A program made the translations under genes and the position numbers. Shown here piece by piece: positions 1,169-15,805 of a stretch of DNA of 64,000 nucleotides. Source of the stretch: Chloroflexota bacterium. GTDB lineage: Bacteria; Chloroflexota; UBA6077; FW602-bin22; JAMCYS01. Each line of letters opens with the position of its first letter. Position 1 is the first letter of the stretch. Below the pieces are notes generated by a model. The model did no database searches, had not been told where the DNA came from, and was given only the letters and a program-made list of their open reading frames with translations. The stretch lies in contig JAMCYS010000090.1 in assembly GCA_023473795.1 (NCBI GenBank), forward strand, positions 1 through 64,000, in the 5' to 3' direction.

Positions 1169-1360
1169 CTACTCCCAAGAGATGATCCAAACGCAGCCGC
1201 CGGCCAAGAGCACGGTGGCGACCGTGAGCGCCGCCATGTGGCTGGCCTGCAGGCCAACGTCCTTGGCCGCGAAGAGAAGGATCGCTACCATAACCACGGC
1301 CAGGGCTAGCCAGGCGGCCAAATACGGGTGCCGGCTCACCACGGCGCGCAAGCCACTCAT
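1169..1360 (-). CDS. Small two-helix membrane protein
   Basis: Product of 63 residues with two hydrophobic stretches (about 12-30 and 42-61) separated by a short charged loop, so probably a double-pass inner-membrane protein. Its ATG overlaps the stop of the upstream gene by four bases (ATGA), which points to translational coupling. I do not recognise a family. The coupling and good membrane profile argue for a real gene rather than noise. Confidence 0.6.
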   Translation of the reverse strand: MSGLRAVVSRHPYLAAWLALAVVMVAILLFAAKDVGLQASHMAALTVATVLLAGGCVWIISWE

Positions 1361-1686
1361 TCCTCCACCTTCTCAATCTTGATGTGGACATCTCGCGGTA
1401 GGGCAAGCGCCGCGGCAACTTCCACAGCCTTGCTGATGCCGATGGGCACAGCGCAGGCTTGGTGCAAGGGGTGCCGAGCCACGGCGGCGAAGATGGCGTT
1501 GTCCTTGGCCTTGCCCCGCAAGAGCCCGTAGGGGTCGATCTTGGGGAAGTCGCGTGCCAGGCCACGGCAATTCTGGCAATCGCTTTCGATAGTCACGCCG
1601 ACCATCCCCTCCTCGTCCATCTCCGCCGCGATCCTAGTGACGAAGCCACAAATGCCGGCTTCTACCGTTACCAGCGCTTTAGCCAA
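1357..1686 (-). CDS. DUF6951-like conserved hypothetical protein
   Basis: A 109-residue soluble protein with an AGICGF segment near the start, a paired-cysteine motif SDCQNC at about 35-40 and another Cys near 77. This layout matches my memory of the DUF6951 family of small cysteine-containing proteins in Chloroflexota and anaerobes; function is unknown. The spaced cysteines could bind a metal, which is inference. It overlaps uppP upstream by eight bases and the small membrane gene downstream by four, so the three genes form one transcription unit. Confidence 0.7.
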   Translation of the reverse strand: MAKALVTVEAGICGFVTRIAAEMDEEGMVGVTIESDCQNCRGLARDFPKIDPYGLLRGKAKDNAIFAAVARHPLHQACAVPIGISKAVEVAAALALPRDVHIKIEKVEE

Positions 1687-2635: not shown

Positions 2636-4714
2636 CTAGATGAAGAACGGCGCCAGCACAAGCGTGATGGTCGAGAGCAGCTTGACCAGCACGTGTAGGG
2701 ACGGCCCGGCAGTGTCCTTGAAGGGGTCGCCAACCGTGTCGCCGACGACCGCCGCGGCGTGGGTCGGCGTGTGCTTGCCGATGATGTTGCCCTCGGCGTC
2801 CTTCATGTAGCCGGCCTCGATGAACTTCTTAGCGTTGTCCCAGGCACCACCGCCGTTGTTGAGCACGGTCGCCAGAATGATGCCGGCGATGGTGCCCACC
2901 ATCAGCAGACCAGCCGTGGCTTCGGCTTTGAGCACCAGGCCGACGATGGTCGGCAAGCCAACCGCGAGGAGACCCGGCGCCACCATCTCGCCCAAGGCGG
3001 CCTTGGTCGTGATGTCCACGCAGCGGGCGAAGTCTGGCTGGGAAGTGCCGGCCATGATGCCCGGATCCTCGCGGAACTGCCGCCGCACCTCTTCGATTAT
3101 GCTGCTGGCCGTACGACCCACGGCACGGATGGCCAGCGAGCTGAACAGGTAGACGAGCATGGCGCCCAGGGCCGCGCCGACGAAGACCTCGACTTTGGCC
3201 AGGTTGACGGAAGCCAACGGATGTCCCAGCTCGGCGAGCCGGTCAAGATAGGCCGAGAATAGCAGGAAGGCGGCCAGGGCGGCGGAGCCGATGGCGTAGC
3301 CCTTGGTTAGGGCCTTCGTCGTGTTGCCCACCGCGTCGAGAGCATCGGTGATGTGGCGGGCGCTCTCGGGGGCGCCGGACATTTCGGTGATACCACCAGC
3401 GTTGTCGGTGATCGGCCCGAAGGTATCCATAGCCAGGATGTAAGCCGCGCTCATCAGCATGCCCATCGTCGACACGGCCGTGCCATAGATGGCGCCGTGC
3501 GGCACGCCCGACTGCTCGCCGCACCAGAAGGAAGCGATCAGGGCCACGGAGATGACGACTATGGTGCTGGCGGTGCACTCAAAGCCCACGGCCATGCCGG
3601 CGATGATGTTGGTCGCCGGGCCGGTGCGCGAGGCTTGTGCGATCTCCTGTACCGGTCGCCAGCTGCCCGACGTATAGTAGATAGTTATGTAGACGAAAGC
3701 GATCGACGTGGCGATGCCCACCAGACCGGCGGCGACGAACCACCAGTTGTTTAGCATCTGCATTGTAACGAAGACGACAAAGACGGCGGCCAGAATGGCG
3801 GTCACCCAGTAGCCACGGTTGAGGGCGCTCATGGGGTCGCTGCCCTCGCGCGTGCCGCGCACGGTCATCAGGCCCACGCCGGAGGCGATCAGGCCAAAAG
3901 CGCGGATAACCAGCGGGAAGAGAATCCAAGCGGGGTTGTTGGTGACGCGATAGATGGCCACGCCCAGGATCATCGCGCCGATATTCTCGGCCGCTGTGGA
4001 CTCGAAGAGGTCGGCGCCACGACCGGCGCAGTCGCCCACGTTGTCGCCCACCAAGTCGGCGATGACGGCGGCGTTGCGCGGGTCGTCCTCGGGGATGCCG
4101 GCCTCGACCTTGCCGACCAGGTCGGCCCCCACGTCGGCAGCCTTGGTGTAGATGCCTCCGCCCAGCTGGGCGAAGAGGGCGACGAAACTGGCGCCGAAGC
4201 CGAAGCCCACGATGAGGAACGGCGCCCTATCAGGCGCCGTGGCCCCGCCGAAGGCGTAGAAGATGCCCGCCACGCCAAGGAGGCTGAGCGCCACGACCAG
4301 GAAGCCGGACACCGCGCCACCGCGCAGCGACACAGTGATGGCCTCGGCCAATGAGCGGCGGGCGGCACTGGCGGTGCGCACGTTAGAGCGCACGGCCACG
4401 TACATGCCGATAAATCCGGCGAGACCAGAGGCCGTGGCACCCACCAGGAAGGCAATGCCGGTCTCGATGCCTGTGTTGACGCTTTGGTCGATGTAGCCGA
4501 TAAGGGCGCTGATTAGGACACCCACGACCACCGCGAGCATAGCGATCGTCTGGTACTGCCGGCGGAGGAACGCCATCGCGCCCTGGTAAATCATGTCCGC
4601 GATAGCGACCATCTCGGAAGTGCCGGTGTCCCGCTTGAGAACGTCCCAGGCCAGGAAGGCGACGAAGAAGACCGTCGCCACTCCCACGATGGGAACGATG
4701 GGCACAAGCTCCAT
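2636..4714 (-). CDS. hppA: Membrane-bound proton-pumping pyrophosphatase, K+-independent type
   Basis: Pumps protons across the membrane using pyrophosphate hydrolysis; homodimer with about 16 helices per subunit. The 692-residue product has the substrate motif GGGIYTKAADVGADLVGK (186-203) and DNVGDCAGRGADLFE (224-238), plus a second Asp-rich site near 430-440. The marker GNTTKA puts Lys at 467 where K+-dependent enzymes have Ala, so it should be K+-independent. The start is ATG 4714, preceded by an AGGAGAGAAAGG ribosome site. A translin-like gene begins its reading just upstream on the same strand (gap 19 bases), so the two are probably co-transcribed. Confidence 0.95.
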   Translation of the reverse strand: MELVPIVPIVGVATVFFVAFLAWDVLKRDTGTSEMVAIADMIYQGAMAFLRRQYQTIAMLAVVVGVLISALIGYIDQSVNTGIETGIAFLVGATASGLAGFIGMYVAVRSNVRTASAARRSLAEAITVSLRGGAVSGFLVVALSLLGVAGIFYAFGGATAPDRAPFLIVGFGFGASFVALFAQLGGGIYTKAADVGADLVGKVEAGIPEDDPRNAAVIADLVGDNVGDCAGRGADLFESTAAENIGAMILGVAIYRVTNNPAWILFPLVIRAFGLIASGVGLMTVRGTREGSDPMSALNRGYWVTAILAAVFVVFVTMQMLNNWWFVAAGLVGIATSIAFVYITIYYTSGSWRPVQEIAQASRTGPATNIIAGMAVGFECTASTIVVISVALIASFWCGEQSGVPHGAIYGTAVSTMGMLMSAAYILAMDTFGPITDNAGGITEMSGAPESARHITDALDAVGNTTKALTKGYAIGSAALAAFLLFSAYLDRLAELGHPLASVNLAKVEVFVGAALGAMLVYLFSSLAIRAVGRTASSIIEEVRRQFREDPGIMAGTSQPDFARCVDITTKAALGEMVAPGLLAVGLPTIVGLVLKAEATAGLLMVGTIAGIILATVLNNGGGAWDNAKKFIEAGYMKDAEGNIIGKHTPTHAAAVVGDTVGDPFKDTAGPSLHVLVKLLSTITLVLAPFFI

Positions 4715-4733: not shown

Positions 4734-5432
4734 TCATTCCTGCTGGATCCGCCCGATGTCGTCCGGCTGTATCCCACCCGAACGGCGTTCCAGCTCGGCC
4801 AGGCGCTGGCTGAGCTCCTGCTGGCGCAAGGCCATGGTCAAATCGCCTCTCGTACGCTCGAGCACACCCCGCACCATGTCCGTAGTCCGCCGCAGGCCGC
4901 CGGTCATCGCGTCTGGGTAGTCGATTGTCACCAGGAGCTCGTAGATCTCGTTCATCGCCTGCAGCAGCTCTTCACCACGCGCCACCGTGCCCCGTCGCAG
5001 TTCGTCGAGTATGTAGCGGCGCAACTCCCCGGCCGCCTCCCCCAGCCCGTTCAAATAGGCCTGCCAGCTTACACCCAACTGCTCCGGGCCGACGAGCGGC
5101 TCGTCGCGCACAATCGCATAGGTAGCGGTGGCTTCGGCGTACTCTTTCTGGGCGTCCTGCACGTAGCCAGCGTAGAGCACGTCCGGCTGGTTGGCGAGAG
5201 CAGCAGTCGCACGCTGCAGTCCCTCGCTTGCCGCCGCCAACAACTCGCGCGCCCGCTCGAAATCAGCTCTGTGCACGGCACGAACGGCGTTGGCCGAGGA
5301 GCGCAGGGCCTCCCGCGAGAGCGCTAGCGATTCCTCACGCGCCGTGTTCTTGGACCGAAAGTGCTGATGGGCTTGATCGGCGATGGCGTCCAACTGCAGC
5401 AAGTGCCACTCCCCGCCCGCTCGCGCGGGCAC
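4734..5432 (-). CDS. Translin family protein
   Basis: An all-helical protein of 232 residues that resembles the translin/TRAX superfamily, best known in eukaryotes as octameric nucleic-acid-binding or RNase complexes, with homologues in archaea and some bacteria. The clearest match is the C-terminal half: LGEAAGELRRYILDELRRG, then an ELLVTIDYP segment and a long helix rich in Glu, Arg and Leu, as in translin. I cannot confirm the acidic catalytic residues of TRAX. The GTG start at 5432 lies within a GC-rich inverted repeat (arms 5414-5422 and 5438-5446). A TTG at 5402, preceded by GGGGAG at a good distance, is an alternative start that would shorten the protein by ten residues. It lies between an aminotransferase and hppA. 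Confidence 0.75.
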   Translation of the reverse strand: MPARAGGEWHLLQLDAIADQAHQHFRSKNTAREESLALSREALRSSANAVRAVHRADFERARELLAAASEGLQRATAALANQPDVLYAGYVQDAQKEYAEATATYAIVRDEPLVGPEQLGVSWQAYLNGLGEAAGELRRYILDELRRGTVARGEELLQAMNEIYELLVTIDYPDAMTGGLRRTTDMVRGVLERTRGDLTMALRQQELSQRLAELERRSGGIQPDDIGRIQQE

Positions 5433-5475: not shown

Positions 5476-6639
5476 CTATAGTCTGGCCACGGCGGCCTTG
5501 ATCCGCTCCAGGGCTATCTGTAGGTTCTCCACGGAGTTCGCGTAGGACAGCCGCAAGTAGCCCTCGCCGTACTGCCCGAAGGAGCCCCCGGAGAGGGTTG
5601 CCACGCCCGCCTCGGTGAGAAGGTAATCGGCCAGCGCCGACGACGGCACGCCGACCCGGCTGACGTTCGGGAAGACGTAGAAGGCGCCCTGCGGCCGCAG
5701 GCAGCTGAATCCCCGTATCTGATTGAGACCGTCGACTATGACGTCGCGGCGGCGTTTGAACTCGGCCACGTAGCGCGCCGGTTCCTCCTGCGGGCCAGTG
5801 ATGGCCTCGACGCCAGCGCGCTGAATGAAACTGGCGGTGCAGGAGGCGCTGTTGGTCATCAAGCGGGTGATGTGCGCGGCCAGGTCCAGCGGCATTATGC
5901 CGTAGCCCAAGCGCCAGCCGGTCATCGCGTAGGTCTTCGAGAAGCCGTCCAGAATAATCGCTTTGTCCTGCATTCCAGGGAGAGAAGCTATCGAGAAGTG
6001 CTCGCCCGAGTAGATGATGCGACGGTAGACCTCGTCGGTCAGGACAGGGATATTCCGCTCGCTGGCGATTTCCGCCACCTGTTCCAGGTCTGAGCGAGTG
6101 AGCACGCCGCCGGTAGGGTTCTGGGGTGAGTTGAGGATAATGAGGCGCGTCTTGTCGCTGACCTTCTGCCGCAGTTCGCCGACGTCGAAGCGGAACTCGC
6201 GATCTTCGCGCAGCTGCACGGGCACCGGCACGCCGCCGACGAAGTTGATCACCGATTCGTAGATGGGGAACCCCGGATTGGGGTAGATGACTTCGTCGCC
6301 CTCGTCGACCAGAGACATTATGACGAAGAACATTATCGGCTTGGCGCCGGGTGTGACCACTACCTGGTCGGCGGTATGGGTTACCCCTCGCACCTGGCTG
6401 GATTCGCGGGCAATGGCCTCGCGTAGTTCCGGCAGGCCGGCGGAGGGACCGTAGTGCGTCCAGCCCTGCTTGAGCGCCGCCACGCCCGCCTCGACGATGT
6501 TGGCAGGCGTGTCGAAGTCCGGCTCACCGATCTCCAGGTGCACTACGTGCTTGCCTTTGGCCTCTAAAGCCCGGGCCCGCGCCAGCATCTCGAACGCCGT
6601 CTCGGTACCCAAGCGGTTCATCTTTGCGGCAACTCTCAT
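5476..6639 (-). CDS. Class I/II PLP-dependent aminotransferase (aspartate aminotransferase-like)
   Basis: Transfers an amino group between an amino acid and a 2-oxo acid using pyridoxal phosphate; cytosolic fold-type I enzyme of 387 residues. The PLP lysine is Lys235 in DGFSKTYAMTGWRLGYG. Other landmarks are NPQNPTGG-type SPQNPTGG near 171-178 and TDEVYRRI near 201-208. The overall pattern is that of the aspartate aminotransferase subgroup (AspC/PatA-like), but substrate cannot be fixed. A TyrA-like gene lies 5 kb away, so a role as aromatic aminotransferase is possible. A good promoter lies upstream at 6728-6756. Confidence 0.88.
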   Translation of the reverse strand: MRVAAKMNRLGTETAFEMLARARALEAKGKHVVHLEIGEPDFDTPANIVEAGVAALKQGWTHYGPSAGLPELREAIARESSQVRGVTHTADQVVVTPGAKPIMFFVIMSLVDEGDEVIYPNPGFPIYESVINFVGGVPVPVQLREDREFRFDVGELRQKVSDKTRLIILNSPQNPTGGVLTRSDLEQVAEIASERNIPVLTDEVYRRIIYSGEHFSIASLPGMQDKAIILDGFSKTYAMTGWRLGYGIMPLDLAAHITRLMTNSASCTASFIQRAGVEAITGPQEEPARYVAEFKRRRDVIVDGLNQIRGFSCLRPQGAFYVFPNVSRVGVPSSALADYLLTEAGVATLSGGSFGQYGEGYLRLSYANSVENLQIALERIKAAVARL

Positions 6640-8580: not shown

Positions 8581-9490
8581 CCTGGGCCATCCTGCAAGGC
8601 AAGGGGGCGCCGCTGTTCGGCGTCGGAGAATGGAACCATCCGGGGGGCTATTTCCACCTCTACGCCGTCTGGCTGGCCATCCTGGGCTACGGGGAGGTGC
8701 CGCTGCGGGCCAGCGACGCCTGCAACGGCGCTGTTCTGGTCGTGTTGGTCTACTTCCTGGGACGAGCCCTGTTCGGCAAGCGGGTCGCTCTGCTCGCGGC
8801 CGTTCTGGTCTGCTGCAACGTCGGCTTCCTCGTCTTCAGCCGCCAGGCGCTAGGCCTGTCAGTGTTGCCGGTTCTCTGGACTGGGGCCTTCCTCGCCCTC
8901 TGGGCCGGTCTGCAGAGAGGATCAGGCAAGCTACTGGTCTTGGCCGGCATACTAGGCGGGCTAGGGATGTATACGACCTTCGCGGCGCTCAGCTGGCTGG
9001 CGACAGTCGCCATCTTCGCCGCGGCCGTGGCCCTACTGACCCGCCAGATCAGGGCCTACGTACGGCCGGCGCTACTGTTTGGGCTGGGCTTCGCCGCCGC
9101 CTTCGCCCCCCTGGCGCCAGCCTATCCGCTGGTTTGGGCGCACTCCTCAAGTCGCCTGCTGTCGTCAGACCCGCGACAAATGCTGGCCATCGCCGGCACA
9201 ACGGACTTGATTCCCGTCTATTGGGCGAACCTCATCAGGAACCTGCAGGGCCTCTTCGTGGCCAATCGCGAGGGCTTCTTCCTCCCGGGTTTGCCGCTTC
9301 TCGGCCCCGGCGAAGGCGCTCTCTTCGTGCTGGGGGGACTGTACGCATTAGTGCGACTGCGCGACCTGCGCTTCCTGCTTCTGCTCTGCTGGCTGGTGGT
9401 GATGTTTATCTGCAACGCGGAGATCAACAGCATAAGCCCGCAGGCGCATCGCCTCTGGTTTGGCACCGCGCCCATGCTGCTGCTGGCGGC
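8581..9490 (+). repeat. 910-bp perfect tandem duplication, copy 1
   Basis: Identical by eye to 9491-10400. It begins with CCTGGGCCAT and ends before the second CCTGGGCCAT. The flanking base differs (G at 8580, C at 9490), so the boundary shows only one base of shared sequence. It lies wholly within the PMT gene. Confidence 0.95.
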
Positions 9491-10400
9491 CCTGGGCCAT
9501 CCTGCAAGGCAAGGGGGCGCCGCTGTTCGGCGTCGGAGAATGGAACCATCCGGGGGGCTATTTCCACCTCTACGCCGTCTGGCTGGCCATCCTGGGCTAC
9601 GGGGAGGTGCCGCTGCGGGCCAGCGACGCCTGCAACGGCGCTGTTCTGGTCGTGTTGGTCTACTTCCTGGGACGAGCCCTGTTCGGCAAGCGGGTCGCTC
9701 TGCTCGCGGCCGTTCTGGTCTGCTGCAACGTCGGCTTCCTCGTCTTCAGCCGCCAGGCGCTAGGCCTGTCAGTGTTGCCGGTTCTCTGGACTGGGGCCTT
9801 CCTCGCCCTCTGGGCCGGTCTGCAGAGAGGATCAGGCAAGCTACTGGTCTTGGCCGGCATACTAGGCGGGCTAGGGATGTATACGACCTTCGCGGCGCTC
9901 AGCTGGCTGGCGACAGTCGCCATCTTCGCCGCGGCCGTGGCCCTACTGACCCGCCAGATCAGGGCCTACGTACGGCCGGCGCTACTGTTTGGGCTGGGCT
10001 TCGCCGCCGCCTTCGCCCCCCTGGCGCCAGCCTATCCGCTGGTTTGGGCGCACTCCTCAAGTCGCCTGCTGTCGTCAGACCCGCGACAAATGCTGGCCAT
10101 CGCCGGCACAACGGACTTGATTCCCGTCTATTGGGCGAACCTCATCAGGAACCTGCAGGGCCTCTTCGTGGCCAATCGCGAGGGCTTCTTCCTCCCGGGT
10201 TTGCCGCTTCTCGGCCCCGGCGAAGGCGCTCTCTTCGTGCTGGGGGGACTGTACGCATTAGTGCGACTGCGCGACCTGCGCTTCCTGCTTCTGCTCTGCT
10301 GGCTGGTGGTGATGTTTATCTGCAACGCGGAGATCAACAGCATAAGCCCGCAGGCGCATCGCCTCTGGTTTGGCACCGCGCCCATGCTGCTGCTGGCGGC
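9491..10400 (+). repeat. 910-bp perfect tandem duplication, copy 2
   Basis: Direct repeat of 8581-9490 with no differences that I can find. After position 10401 the sequence departs from copy 1's continuation (CG here, CC at 9491-9492). A length of 910 is not a multiple of three, which is what breaks the gene. Confidence 0.95.
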
Positions 10401-10959
10401 CGTCGCTATCGACCGGACGCTGCTGTTGGGGCAACCGGAGCTCGGAGACAGGGCGCGCAGGCTGGCACGGCGTTACGGCGGTGTGGCTCTAGCCACGGTG
10501 CTGGTGGGCGTGATCTGCGTCGGCGGGCTGCGGGCCTTCTTCACTCACGGAGAGAAGTTGATCATGTGGGAGACGGCCAGCTCGCAGGCGCGCTACATCG
10601 CCCAACTCGGGCCAAAGGTATCGATCGGTCTGCTGGGTGCGCCGAATATCTACTTCGATCACCCATCGCGGCAGTACTTGGCACCCCAGGCGATAGGCAT
10701 GAATATCACCCGCTGGCCGGACGACCTCGACGCCCTGCGAGCATTAGGCCGGCCTGCCGTCTTCATCGTCTACCCTCACCGCAACGCGGACCTCGAGCGT
10801 CTACGGGCAGCCTTCCCCGAAGGGCAGGAGAGGGCAATCGTGCTGCCGGTGCCCGAACCGCACACGGTGTTCACCGCCTTCGCCACGGAAGGCTTGCCGC
10901 CGCCGCTCCAACCACTGCCCCCCGACCCGCTCGGCCAGGCGCTCTTCCGCTGAAAGCGC

Positions 10960-13900
10960 CTACTTGGGCGTGGGATATACCACGACTCGATTGTTGCCAG
11001 AGTCGGCGACGTAAAGGTTCCCCTGCCCGTCCACGGCCAATCCTAGAGGCAGATAGAGAGGCATTTGGCCCTGGTTGGCACCCCAGACCGCCAGCAGCTC
11101 CCCGGTATTGGCGAACTTGAGCAGGCGCTGGCCCTCTGGGTCGCTGGCATACACGTTGCCGACGGCATCCACAGCTAGATAGGGTTTGTTGGCCACTCCC
11201 TCAGAGCTCCAGGAAGGCACGTCCCACTGGGCAAGGTAGTTGTAGTCCGGGCCGAATTTCTGGATCCGCTGGTTCCAGGTATCGGCGAGGTAGATGCTAC
11301 CCTGAGCATCCAGGGCGATGCCCACGGGCTCGTTAAGCTGGCCGTCGCCCGCGCCAAAGGTGCCGAACTGGCTGATGAAGGCCCCGTCGGGCGAGAACTT
11401 CTGCACCCGCTTGTTGCCGGTATCGACGACGAGCACGTTGCCCTCGCGGTCGACCGCCAGGCCGCGCGGACCGTAGAACAGGCCCGGGGAACTGCCCGGC
11501 TGGCCGCGAGCGTCGGCGAAGCTGCCCCATTGCAGCAGAAAGCGGCCGCTGGCGTCGAACTTCTGCACGCGGTAATTCCAGGTGTCAGACACATAGACGT
11601 TTCCCTGGCCATCCACCGCGATGCCCCACGGCTCGTCGAACTGTCCGGGCTCCTTTCCTCGACTGCCCCACTGCGCCAACACCTGGCCGTCGGCGGCGAG
11701 ACGCACCACCCGGTCGTTGCCGGAGTCCAGAACGTAGAGTCCTCCGTCGGGAGCCGGAGCGACGCCCTTGGGGTCGTTCAGCGTCCCTGCCCCGGGGAGG
11801 GCGGCGATTGTGCGGGAGGGCGCGATGTCCGTCGTCTTGTTGGCATACGGGTCCTGGCCGACGCCGGCCGCGGTCGCCGCCTGCGCCGGCATCCAGGCGC
11901 CGCCGACCAGGTCCTTACGCACGTAGAGGACGAAATCGGTAGATCCGAGTGGATCAAGCGGCTCGCGATAGAGGAAGTAGCGCCAGAGGCGCGTACGCGC
12001 GTCGCTCCGCAGACTGGCACGCAGAATATCCAGGAAACCGAAGCCCGAGGAATCGGCAGGCAGGGTGGCGCGCTGCGCCTCGGGCGTTATGGCCCGCAGC
12101 CACTCCGCCACGGTGCGGTAGTCCTCGGGGAACCACCAGCGCAGCCGATAGCGCTGGCTAACGTAGTTGCCCGCCAGCAGCGGCCGCACCTGGGCGTCGT
12201 GGTTGTTCTCCAAGCCGACGATCACTACGGCGGCGTCTGTCGGGGGGGAGCCTGTGCCGATGAAGACCCGGCCCGGCCAGTCGCGCAGGTACCATTCGAA
12301 CGGCCAGGAGACGTCGCTGTCGTAGGCGACTTTCAGGTTCTTGCCCTGGCCGGTGCGCACGGCGACACGCTCGATATCCTGCATTACGTTGACGACGTCC
12401 GGGGTCGTCTGGGTGTAGACGATCATCTCCGTGGCGATGTCGCCGTTGACGAAGGCAGCCTGGACGCCCGTATGCACCGTCAGGGGCACCAACACCACCA
12501 GCGAACCCACGGCCAGCGTGCCCAGCGAGCGTCGCAGGCCCAGACGCTCGGCGACGCGCAGGACCAGGTAGGCGAGGGCAGCCAGAAGCCCTACCATCAG
12601 CAGCCAGCGCAGCCAGAGATTCTGGCTCTGCAGGTCGCTGAGCCCCGCGGCGGTCGGCCGAGGCATGTTGGAGAGCGCTAGCCCGACCACGAGCAGCACC
12701 ACAGCCGCCCCCACCAATAGGGCTCGCGCTCGAGCTAGGTCGCGCCAGCGCTGGCTTTGCAGCACCGCCGCCAGGGCCATCGCCGCCAGTAGAGCGAGCG
12801 GTAGGCCAAGCTGCAGTATCAGCCAGGGCATCTTCTCACCCGCCCAACTGAAGAGCACCAGGGCGCCCGCGAACCAGAATACGAGGAAGGACGTGAACGG
12901 CCGGCGTTTGACCAGGAAGTAGGCTATGCCCGGCAAGGCGAAGGCCAACAACAAGTACTCGTAGAGCGGCAGGAGCAGGAGGTAGTAGTACCAGGGCTGG
13001 CCGCCCCGGCGCACCTCCTGCTGGGCCAGCCAGTAGACCAGACCGCCGACCGCCCCTGTGATGAAGCCGGCCGGATTGCTGAACATTGTCGTGAAGAAGA
13101 TAGTGAAGACGGCGAAAAAGACGCCTGCCGCCGTGAGCCACACTCGCGCCCGCCAGCGGGTGCCGATAAGCGCCGCCACTGCCAGAAGCAGCACGAAGAC
13201 GACGGCCAGGAAGCGGTACTCCTCTGGCGTCGGGTAGGCGTCAATAGGCCTGCCCTGCAACCGGCGATAGATGATCGCGAAGCCGCCCAACTGGGTCAAC
13301 GTTAGCGTTCCCAGGAGCAGCAGCACGTCGGCCGGTCCACCGAAATGCCTCTCGCGCTTGAACAGGGCCAGCAACTCGGGCCCCGTCCAGACGAAGAAGA
13401 ACAAACCCCACACCGCCATCACGAGGTAGGTGGTCTCTTTCGTATTGAAGGAAAGGGCCAACAGCCCGGAGAGAATGTAGAGATAGACGGGCCGGCGTTC
13501 GTCGAGATAGCGCCAGATACAGACGAACATGGCCAGCGTGAAGAAGGCTACGTGCGCATCCTCGCGGATGAAGCGCCCGAAATAGAGGAAGGACGGCGAA
13601 ATCAGCAGCAGTCCGCAGGCGAGTAGGGCCGCCAGTCGACCCATCTGCCGCCGAAGCAAGTACGGCAAACCGACCGTAAGCGTGCCCAGGAAAGCCGGGG
13701 CGTAGCGCGCCGAGGCATCGCTGGCCCCAAAGAGGAAATAGATCAGGGCGTTGAAATGGTAGATGAACGTGCCGTGCAATAGGGGATCGTGCACGTAGCC
13801 GCGGCCGGTATAGAGGTAATAGGAGTAGACCGCATGCAGGCTTTCGTCGTGATGCAGCGCCCGCGCCCCCAGGTCCCAGAAGCGGCTGATCGCGGCCAAG

Positions 13901-14019
13901 ACCATAATGCTCACGAACAGCGCCTTCTCCCAATCGAGCGACAGCGCGTTCAGAAGCGAGAGATCCAGCAGCGAACGCTGCCGGGCTTCACCCTCGTATG
14001 CCAGTTCCCCGCTTTGCAT
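10960..14019 (-). CDS. Agl23-type GT39 membrane protein with C-terminal NHL propeller
   Basis: About 1019 residues. The N-terminal two thirds is a multi-pass protein of the Agl23 family (flippase-activity-associated, TIGR03663-like), with the first-loop acidic pair in ALHHDESLHAVYSYY (Asp58, Glu59) and GRGYVHDPLLHGTF. After a soluble domain, residues from about 735 to the end hold six NHL repeats with recurring LxVDxxGNVYVxDTxNxRVQKF units, enough for one six-bladed propeller, presumably outside the cell. I start at ATG 14019, ten bases after the upstream stop; an upstream frame of 47 residues is open but looks non-coding. Last gene of a four-gene operon. Confidence 0.88.
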   Translation of the reverse strand: MQSGELAYEGEARQRSLLDLSLLNALSLDWEKALFVSIMVLAAISRFWDLGARALHHDESLHAVYSYYLYTGRGYVHDPLLHGTFIYHFNALIYFLFGASDASARYAPAFLGTLTVGLPYLLRRQMGRLAALLACGLLLISPSFLYFGRFIREDAHVAFFTLAMFVCIWRYLDERRPVYLYILSGLLALSFNTKETTYLVMAVWGLFFFVWTGPELLALFKRERHFGGPADVLLLLGTLTLTQLGGFAIIYRRLQGRPIDAYPTPEEYRFLAVVFVLLLAVAALIGTRWRARVWLTAAGVFFAVFTIFFTTMFSNPAGFITGAVGGLVYWLAQQEVRRGGQPWYYYLLLLPLYEYLLLAFALPGIAYFLVKRRPFTSFLVFWFAGALVLFSWAGEKMPWLILQLGLPLALLAAMALAAVLQSQRWRDLARARALLVGAAVVLLVVGLALSNMPRPTAAGLSDLQSQNLWLRWLLMVGLLAALAYLVLRVAERLGLRRSLGTLAVGSLVVLVPLTVHTGVQAAFVNGDIATEMIVYTQTTPDVVNVMQDIERVAVRTGQGKNLKVAYDSDVSWPFEWYLRDWPGRVFIGTGSPPTDAAVVIVGLENNHDAQVRPLLAGNYVSQRYRLRWWFPEDYRTVAEWLRAITPEAQRATLPADSSGFGFLDILRASLRSDARTRLWRYFLYREPLDPLGSTDFVLYVRKDLVGGAWMPAQAATAAGVGQDPYANKTTDIAPSRTIAALPGAGTLNDPKGVAPAPDGGLYVLDSGNDRVVRLAADGQVLAQWGSRGKEPGQFDEPWGIAVDGQGNVYVSDTWNYRVQKFDASGRFLLQWGSFADARGQPGSSPGLFYGPRGLAVDREGNVLVVDTGNKRVQKFSPDGAFISQFGTFGAGDGQLNEPVGIALDAQGSIYLADTWNQRIQKFGPDYNYLAQWDVPSWSSEGVANKPYLAVDAVGNVYASDPEGQRLLKFANTGELLAVWGANQGQMPLYLPLGLAVDGQGNLYVADSGNNRVVVYPTPK

Positions 14020-14029
14020 CCCCACTACC

Positions 14030-15805
14030 CTATCTGTTGGCGTTGCCCACGGCCACGTAGAGGCGCACCTCCTGCCGTGGCGCCACGACAGTGAATTCAC
14101 GGTACAGCAGCCAGCGCCACAGCTGGCCTGGGCCAGAGGCGGCAAACGCAGCCGCACCACCCAGCGTGTACTTCTGCCAGACGTAGTTGCCGGGCGGCGG
14201 TTCCACCTCCGCCGGCACCACTACCAGCGTCGAGCCCACGGTCGGCCCATCGTAGGTCACGCGTGTGTAGTCGCGCAAGTACCAGGCAAGGGGGTACTTG
14301 AGAGTGGCATCCACGGCCAGGCTCAGATCCCGGCTGCCAGGAGTGCTCAGCACCGCGGACTCGCGCTCGATTTCCTGATATAGGCTGCGCAGGTCAGCGC
14401 CGGTTGTCTGATGCGCCGGCAGGAAGCCCGGCCCCAACGGGTCCGTTTCGGCAACCGCGGCGCTGACGTGCAAGGCAAAGCCAAGCACAACCACCGCCGC
14501 CAGCAAAGCCGCGCCCCAGGCAGCAGGCGAAGGGCCGCGCCAGAAGGCCCAAAGCGCGGCCACGACCCACAACAGCGCCGGGGGCACCAGAACTACGCTG
14601 GGAGGCACCGTCGAGTTGGGAAGGGCCACGTAGCCGGCGGTAATGCCAAACAGCCACACCGCGGGCAGAGTCGAGCACAGAAAGAGAGCCGCCTCAGCAG
14701 GTGCCAGCCGACGCCTGCCCTGCCGCCAGAGCTCGGCCACGGCTGTCCCGCCTGCCAGTGCCCAAGGCAACACGATGTAGGACAGGCCGCTCGCTCCCGG
14801 GCCGGCGGCGAAGCCCGCGGCGAGCACGGCCACCGTGCCCCAGACCAAGGCGAAGCGCGCGCCCGCACCCAACCAGGGCAGCAGCACCAGCGCGGCCACG
14901 GCGCCCAGAACCACCGCCGGCTCGTACACGGCCAGCGTTGCCACGACGGCAGGCCAAACCCTCACCCCGCCGGCGAACGAACCCAGCCAGAGAGCCAGAG
15001 GGTCAATCACCCCCGTCTGCACCCCTTGCGGCTGGCTCAGCAGGCCCGTAGCCACGAGCAGCAGCCCCAGCGCACCCGGCAACGCCCACGGTCGCCAGCG
15101 GCCGAGCAGCTGACTAGAATCGGCGGGCAAACGCCCAGCCAGCGCCTGCGTGAGGCCGAAGGCGAGGCCCAGAGGGACAACCAGGGCAAAGGAAGAGGGA
15201 CCGCAGGCGAGAGTCAAGCCCGCCAGCAAGCCAGCCAAAGCGAAGGCAAGCCGGCCGCCGCCTTCCCGGGCCTGCGCGTAGGCCAACGCCGCTCCGCCGA
15301 GCAGCGCCAGGGCCGGCAGCTCGCCATCCAACTGGCGCGAGGCGCCCACAAGCGAGGGCGAGATCGCTAGAAGCAGCGTAGCGCCCAGAGCGGCCTCACG
15401 ACCGAACCAGCGCCGCCCCAGGTAGGGATAGAAGACCACCGCCAAGCCCGCCAGAGAGGGCAACAGGCGAGCGGTGAAGTCGGACGCGGAGAAAAGGAAG
15501 AAGAGGGCGGCGGTTCCGTACATGAGGACAGGGCCGGCGGCGAGCGAGGAGACATCGCCGCGAGTCAGTTGCAGCGCCGCCAGGGCCCGGCGACCTTCGT
15601 CGGCGCTGAGCAACGGCGTGCCCAGGTCCCACAGGCGCAGGCCCGCCGCCAGGAGCCAGAGCAGCAGATACGCACCTACCTCGAGTGTCAGCCTGTCGGC
15701 AGCAAGACGGGGCATTGCGTCCGCACCGGTCCCGGTATGTATTACCGTCGAGGCGGCGACGTCCGCGTCCTCGACCCCTACTGCTCGCGCTTCCTGCATC
15801 GTCAA
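14030..15805 (-). CDS. GT39/PMT-family membrane glycosyltransferase
   Basis: A 591-residue multi-pass protein with a short charged N-terminal tail, a first-loop acidic pair in TPLLSADEGRRALAA, about 12 hydrophobic helices, and a C-terminal soluble part resembling the matching region of the neighbouring Agl23 protein (an IERESAV...YPLAWYLRDY stretch). It probably belongs to the same GT39 lineage as its neighbour but lacks the propeller. The ATG overlaps the stop of the YYY gene by four bases, so the two are translationally coupled. The sugar and acceptor are unknown. Confidence 0.82.
   Translation of the reverse strand: MTMQEARAVGVEDADVAASTVIHTGTGADAMPRLAADRLTLEVGAYLLLWLLAAGLRLWDLGTPLLSADEGRRALAALQLTRGDVSSLAAGPVLMYGTAALFFLFSASDFTARLLPSLAGLAVVFYPYLGRRWFGREAALGATLLLAISPSLVGASRQLDGELPALALLGGAALAYAQAREGGGRLAFALAGLLAGLTLACGPSSFALVVPLGLAFGLTQALAGRLPADSSQLLGRWRPWALPGALGLLLVATGLLSQPQGVQTGVIDPLALWLGSFAGGVRVWPAVVATLAVYEPAVVLGAVAALVLLPWLGAGARFALVWGTVAVLAAGFAAGPGASGLSYIVLPWALAGGTAVAELWRQGRRRLAPAEAALFLCSTLPAVWLFGITAGYVALPNSTVPPSVVLVPPALLWVVAALWAFWRGPSPAAWGAALLAAVVVLGFALHVSAAVAETDPLGPGFLPAHQTTGADLRSLYQEIERESAVLSTPGSRDLSLAVDATLKYPLAWYLRDYTRVTYDGPTVGSTLVVVPAEVEPPPGNYVWQKYTLGGAAAFAASGPGQLWRWLLYREFTVVAPRQEVRLYVAVGNANR

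Follow-up and report, generated by a model that had tools for sequence, protein, structure and literature searches.

A gene in the 64,000-nucleotide stretch of DNA analysed here (the window) encodes a Trax-type member of the translin superfamily that carries acidic residues at all four positions of the Trax nuclease site. Related genes are widespread in three bacterial groups, and trax is repeatedly found, as in the window, next to hppA, the gene for a membrane proton pyrophosphatase. TRAX is the catalytic subunit of C3PO, which in eukaryotes is known from studies of RNA interference and of tRNA. The superfamily already had bacterial members, reportedly described by Gupta in 2012 (J Mol Evol), to which the trax gene of the window adds one. 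A literature search covering one library found no paper that studies a bacterial or Chloroflexota Trax protein. The first-pass annotation of the window, made from the letters alone, had proposed a translin homologue adjoining hppA in a probable Chloroflexota; the homologue is more exactly of Trax type, the neighbour is indeed hppA, and the relatives bear out the source.

The trax open frame lies on the minus strand and ends at 4734, where the first-pass annotation had placed it (Table 1); the plus-strand frame of 4734-5432 is broken by an internal stop. A GGGGAG sequence stands just upstream of the TTG at 5402, and alignments with relatives as a rule do not begin before residues 10-14; the probable length of the protein is therefore 222 aa, near the family median of 216-218 aa. 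The in-frame extension further upstream is probably untranslated, since it holds the ribosome-binding-like site of the TTG start. The ATG of hppA (PF03030) is located at 4714, 19 bp past the trax stop and on the same strand, with AGGAG in the gap. To judge from gene order and strand, the arrangement aminotransferase-trax-hppA resembles an operon. Neither tRNA genes nor Rfam families above gathering score were found within the 64-kb window, and thus no RNA substrate is visible beside trax.

Table 1. Coordinates of trax, its flanking genes and the putative catalytic residues in the window
Feature	Position	Strand	Remarks
trax gene, likely extent	4734..5402	minus	TTG start 5402, 222 aa
trax, longer frame from GTG 5432	4734..5432	minus	232 aa
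In-frame extension to GTG 5432	5403..5432	minus	contains GGGGAG ribosome-binding-like site of TTG 5402
hppA, membrane proton pyrophosphatase (PF03030), motif GNTTKA	2636..4714	minus	next gene after trax
Class I/II aminotransferase (PF00155)	5476..6639	minus	precedes trax
E97 and E100 (EYAE), first half of putative catalytic site	5133..5144	minus	codon count, 232-aa frame
E132 and E136 (EAAGE), second half of putative catalytic site	5025..5039	minus	codon count, 232-aa frame

Other features of the window were noted in passing. Downstream of hppA, positions 1357-1686 (minus) encode a small DUF6951 protein (E 3.2e-29), and uppP/bacA (1679-2515, minus) lies close by. An exact 910-bp tandem duplication spans 8581-10401, with identical copies at 8581-9491 and 9491-10401; it sits within a long membrane-protein-like ORF, disrupts its frame and may be an assembly artefact. 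Positions 10960-14160 (minus) hold a 1066-aa ORF whose N-terminal part is membrane-rich and whose C-terminal repeats (DGQGNLYVADSGNNRVVVY is one) have the look of NHL repeats.

The assignment to Trax rests on several sequence comparisons. In a single-sequence search of solved structures the best match was AfTrax from Archaeoglobus (E 2.2e-22 over residues 23-201), and NEQ131 from Nanoarchaeum equitans matched at E 2e-9; the AfTrax matches amount to whole-domain similarity to a proven Trax. A profile search of the same structures returned AfTrax at E 4.9e-38 followed by the Drosophila and human TRAX chains (E 2.7e-5 to 6.5e-5), while translin proper was absent from the 9 matches up to E 1, which places the protein with Trax and not closer to translin. 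The window protein and 21 aligned relatives share 52-61% identity.

Profile libraries recognize this branch poorly. The Pfam Translin family (PF01997) scores the window protein at 17.0 bits (E 0.0059), under its 25.9-bit cut-off, which is a detection threshold and not a biological trait. The first-pass annotation had named a Pfam translin search as the way to check the homology: at the level of the family the search succeeds, as 17 of the 22 aligned members match PF01997 at E <= 0.01 (best 2.6e-8), but for the window protein itself it fails, with a sub-threshold score and a better E-value from another family. To reject the homology for want of a translin profile match, as had also been suggested, would have misled, since PF01997 yields only 17 bits on a Trax-type protein. 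A PF01997 search of the genome to which the window belongs found nothing (0/1), and because this profile is too weak for the bacterial Trax branch, the window protein itself was taken as the query. The Pfam family with the better E-value is BMFP (0.00089 against 0.0059), yet it matches 4 of the 22 members against 17 for Translin and was set aside as a helical look-alike; matches to DUF2000 and PTS EIIA-Lac in Pfam and NCBIfam were dismissed likewise.

Six NCBIfam models of PRK14562 (NF011156-NF011161), which cover bacterial translin superfamily members, match the window protein, the best being NF011160 (E 8.1e-87). Its score of 290.1 bits falls 0.9 bits short of the cut-off of 291, so that the window protein would miss the automatic NCBIfam name; at that similarity it plainly belongs to the NF011160 family. 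All six models carry the product name 'haloacid dehalogenase superfamily protein', apparently a mistake that is passed on with them.

A single-chain AF2 model built from 22 sequences (pLDDT 91.0, pTM 0.83) consists of ten helices and no strand, as in the all-helical translin fold. In a Foldseek search the chains of AfC3PO and NeC3PO, the Archaeoglobus and Nanoarchaeum complexes, fill ranks 1-13 and human C3PO comes after them. A second structure aligner gave Z 24.5 for AfC3PO (rmsd 1.4 over 190 residues; TMt 0.92), 20.6 for NeC3PO, 19.7 for human TRAX and 16.9 for Drosophila Trax. Most translins score Z 15.2-16.9, two short Drosophila translin entries score 11.6, and unrelated helical entries start at 11.9. 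Fold alone cannot separate Trax from translin, as Drosophila Trax ties with translins at 16.9. PTS EIIA and PhoU-like proteins (Z 10-12 over 84-90 residues) were taken to share a helical arrangement.

Among characterized systems the closest is AfTrax/AfC3PO of Archaeoglobus fulgidus (PDB 3zc1, 3zc0), the subject of structural work reportedly by Parizotto in 2013, which is 31-32% identical to the window protein and has the four acidic positions in common with it. AfTrax differs in having Asp as the third acid where the window protein has Glu, and the trax of the window, unlike AfTrax, adjoins hppA and an aminotransferase gene. NEQ131/NeC3PO (PDB 5jr9, 5jrc, 5jre), whose entries by title include ssRNA and ssDNA, shares the fold at 21% identity and likewise has Asp at the third acidic position. 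Human and Drosophila TRAX (PDB 3pja, 3riu) keep the fold and the four acidic positions at 14-17% identity and form a hetero-oligomer with translin.

At each of the four Trax nuclease positions the window protein has an acidic residue: E97, E100, E132 and E136. By way of the AfTrax motifs and the human sequence, we take these to be the equivalents of E126, E129, D193 and E197 of human TRAX, so that human Asp193 stands where the window protein has Glu132. PMC9753400 names those four human residues as nuclease residues. The conserved acidic RNase residues that the first-pass annotation had proposed to look for are thus present, and they are acidic throughout the family: among 135 distinct relatives (repeated sequences and the window's own locus left out), E97, E100 and E136 are Glu in all, and two have Asp at position 132, the other 133 Glu. 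Forty loci from the two other phylum samples, which partly overlap with the 135, comprise 39 of EEEE type and one EEDE.

The position matching E132 is Asp in AfTrax, NEQ131 and human TRAX. The AfTrax chains themselves differ there, with Asp in 3zc1 and Ala in 3zc0, an entry titled as a duplex RNA complex, and the Ala is read as a deliberate inactivating change. One methylene more or less is able to alter or destroy a metal site. Since the site is acidic in all relatives, Asp and Glu seem exchangeable at position 132, at least by this comparison, and the Asp-bearing relatives L097, L151 and L218 lie apart from one another in the tree, as expected if the two residues are interchangeable.

The first-pass annotation had called such a protein uncommon in bacteria, which the genome counts contradict. 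In the window's phylum a trax match occurs in 222 of 400 evenly drawn genomes, and in 169 of the 284 of good quality. Two further phyla, named here after MAG titles that can be wrong, gave 84 of 198 genomes (phylum of a 'Ca. Solincola' MAG) and 128 of 151 (phylum of an 'Armatimonadota' MAG), tallies that include at least one very short contig-end match in the former (G418) and likewise in the latter (G624). NCBI places the 'Ca. Solincola' MAG in Actinomycetota, Geothermincolia. A scan of the collection confirmed at least 555 relatives, and the titles of the best 80 of these are mostly Chloroflexota, Dehalococcoidia and Anaerolineae, with some Actinomycetota and Armatimonadota and one Proteobacteria title. 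Searches of 50,697 phage and 72,556 plasmid records turned up no relative, so trax is not a known mobile gene in those records. One Armatimonadota-phylum genome has a second, distant trax-like match (E 1.4e-9; G667:C125:7330-7854), which lies in a 541-aa open frame and is maybe a fused or diverged paralogue.

In a tree of 98 rows the three bacterial groups are mostly apart, with 7 label changes, where 3 is the minimum and shuffling gives 37.7 on average. On these numbers the simplest reading would be that the family is old in bacteria and has been transferred a few times. Only two archaeal sequences are in the tree, both on very long branches that meet each other.

The pairing with hppA was followed in one genome from each of 54 further trax-bearing Chloroflexota families, 55 with the window. 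hppA lies within the fetched stretch in 13 of the 55, a lower bound because some stretches stop at a contig end close to trax; in 12 it starts no more than 400 bp downstream on the same strand, and in one (L138) it is about 3.2 kb away. It is found near trax in at least 37 of the best 80 named loci, and in 7 of 20 Solincola-phylum loci with the window HppA as probe, or 8 of 20 with another probe. An aminotransferase like that of the window is present in 11 of those 20 loci, 7 of which have both genes, and 20 Armatimonadota loci had neither hppA (0/20) nor a window-type aminotransferase (0/20) near trax. Within Chloroflexota, the trax-hppA link appears in no fewer than three separate parts of the tree. 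The motifs GNT(T/S)KA and GNTTAA separate potassium-independent from potassium-dependent pumps, and trax-linked hppA genes are of both types (7/20 and 13/20, respectively); the pairing therefore does not descend with one inherited hppA gene, and the link was formed or renewed with different ones. Of the 400 genomes sampled from the window's phylum, 385 have hppA itself and 222 have trax, so that presence does not co-vary usefully and a co-occurrence test was dropped. Trax does not need hppA, as 6 of the 7 trax-bearing genomes of one family (f34) are without an hppA match. The link is real, but many relatives are without it.

Further neighbours recur. A ThiE-type gene lies near trax in at least 40 of the best 80 named loci (one tested case is a ThiD2-ThiE fusion, PF17792 and PF02581), and a cluster that is presumably RNase HII in at least 24; these counts are lower bounds, as a simple ORF filter lost some genes. 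Upstream of trax in the 55 Chloroflexota families are ssb in 5 and DUF3467 in 4. The order ssb - DUF3467 - trax is repeated in four of them (L133, L157, L160, L161), and in L160 a Cas4-like nuclease follows.

Some neighbours hint at tRNA. A CCA-adding-type nucleotidyltransferase stands just 3' of trax in 5 of 20 Armatimonadota loci (one of the five was tested in Pfam and has PF01743 and PF12627), and an AlaX-like editing protein is found downstream in 3 of the 55 Chloroflexota families. In the window locus itself trax is flanked by the aminotransferase and hppA and has no tRNA-related neighbour. An ancestral archaeal operon inferred in PMC5424206, and repeated in PMC8762117, has TRAX next to SepRS, and according to PMC3834833 C3PO-type complexes of Neurospora remove 5' pre-tRNA fragments. 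A tRNA-fragment role suggested by the bacterial neighbours is a thin lead.

Taken with the fold and the acidic site, bacterial Trax is probably a homo-oligomeric, metal-dependent endoribonuclease that clears small structured RNAs. The subunits would assemble as a homo-oligomer, by analogy with Archaeoglobus C3PO an eight-subunit hollow barrel, which would take in short RNAs and cut them by metal ions bound at E97, E100, E132 and E136; we infer the oligomer and the substrate, as well as the need for metal and the ability to cut RNA with Glu as residue 132. The routine task of the enzyme would most likely be to remove small RNAs that are structured or duplex, the best guess being fragments from tRNA processing. 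The NCBIfam name would instead make the protein a haloacid dehalogenase, and the six PRK14562 models so named do match it, NF011160 at 8.1e-87. Haloacid dehalogenase enzymes have an alpha/beta Rossmann-like core, whereas the AF2 model is all helix without a strand, and no HAD family is among the Pfam matches; this reading can practically be dismissed. A more serious rival, which we nevertheless consider unlikely, is a translin-like nucleic-acid-binding ring without nuclease activity, acting as an RNA or ssDNA chaperone, with Glu132 as the mark of lost cutting. Such a ring would suit position 132, where 133 of 135 relatives lack the Asp of archaeal and human Trax, it has precedent in the non-cutting translins of the same fold (most at Z 15-17), and ssb upstream in 5 of 55 families would agree with it. 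What argues against it is that the four positions are acidic in 135 of 135 relatives and three never vary, that the Asp-bearing sequences are scattered in the tree, which fits interchangeable Asp and Glu, and that TRAX outranks translin by sequence.

The neighbourhood allows still another explanation, namely that the protein belongs to pyrophosphate metabolism or to energy metabolism at the membrane and serves HppA, for instance through control of the hppA mRNA or of HppA activity, the nuclease fold having been exapted. The closeness of the two genes on one strand in 12 of 55 Chloroflexota families, the presence of hppA in at least 37 of the best 80 named loci and in 7 of 20 Solincola-phylum loci, and the two sequence types of linked hppA, which speak against one inherited gene, would all be in keeping with such a service. 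But 43 of the 55 families are without close pairing, as are all 20 Armatimonadota loci; most f34 genomes with trax have no hppA (6 of 7), and hppA is far more widespread than trax (385 against 222 of 400), and we regard this explanation as very doubtful. The best account of the pairing with hppA is that two genes linked to growth are transcribed together, and not that their products form a shared machine.

To our knowledge, the bacteria that carry a single-gene Trax are without RNA interference of the eukaryotic kind. The occurrence of an acidic-site Trax in over half of a phylum's sampled genomes raises the question of the original job of the protein, and bacterial single-gene Trax is a simple system for asking it. 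Retained across most of the bacterial branch, the swap of Asp to Glu serves as a natural test of the nuclease site. In annotation, the Trax family is hidden by an incorrect product name together with the strict cut-off of Pfam. Of specialist interest are its spread over three bacterial groups, the misnaming, the retained Glu and the repeated pairing with hppA. In a wider and tentative reading, more doubtful than probable, a Glu-variant homo-oligomeric C3PO-type RNase would be a standard part of RNA metabolism in Chloroflexota, Armatimonadota and Geothermincolia-type Actinomycetota; it would have been overlooked through the haloacid dehalogenase name in public models and would be tied genetically to the membrane pyrophosphatase, and eukaryotic C3PO would be one branch, and a late one, of an ancient prokaryotic machinery for clearing RNA.
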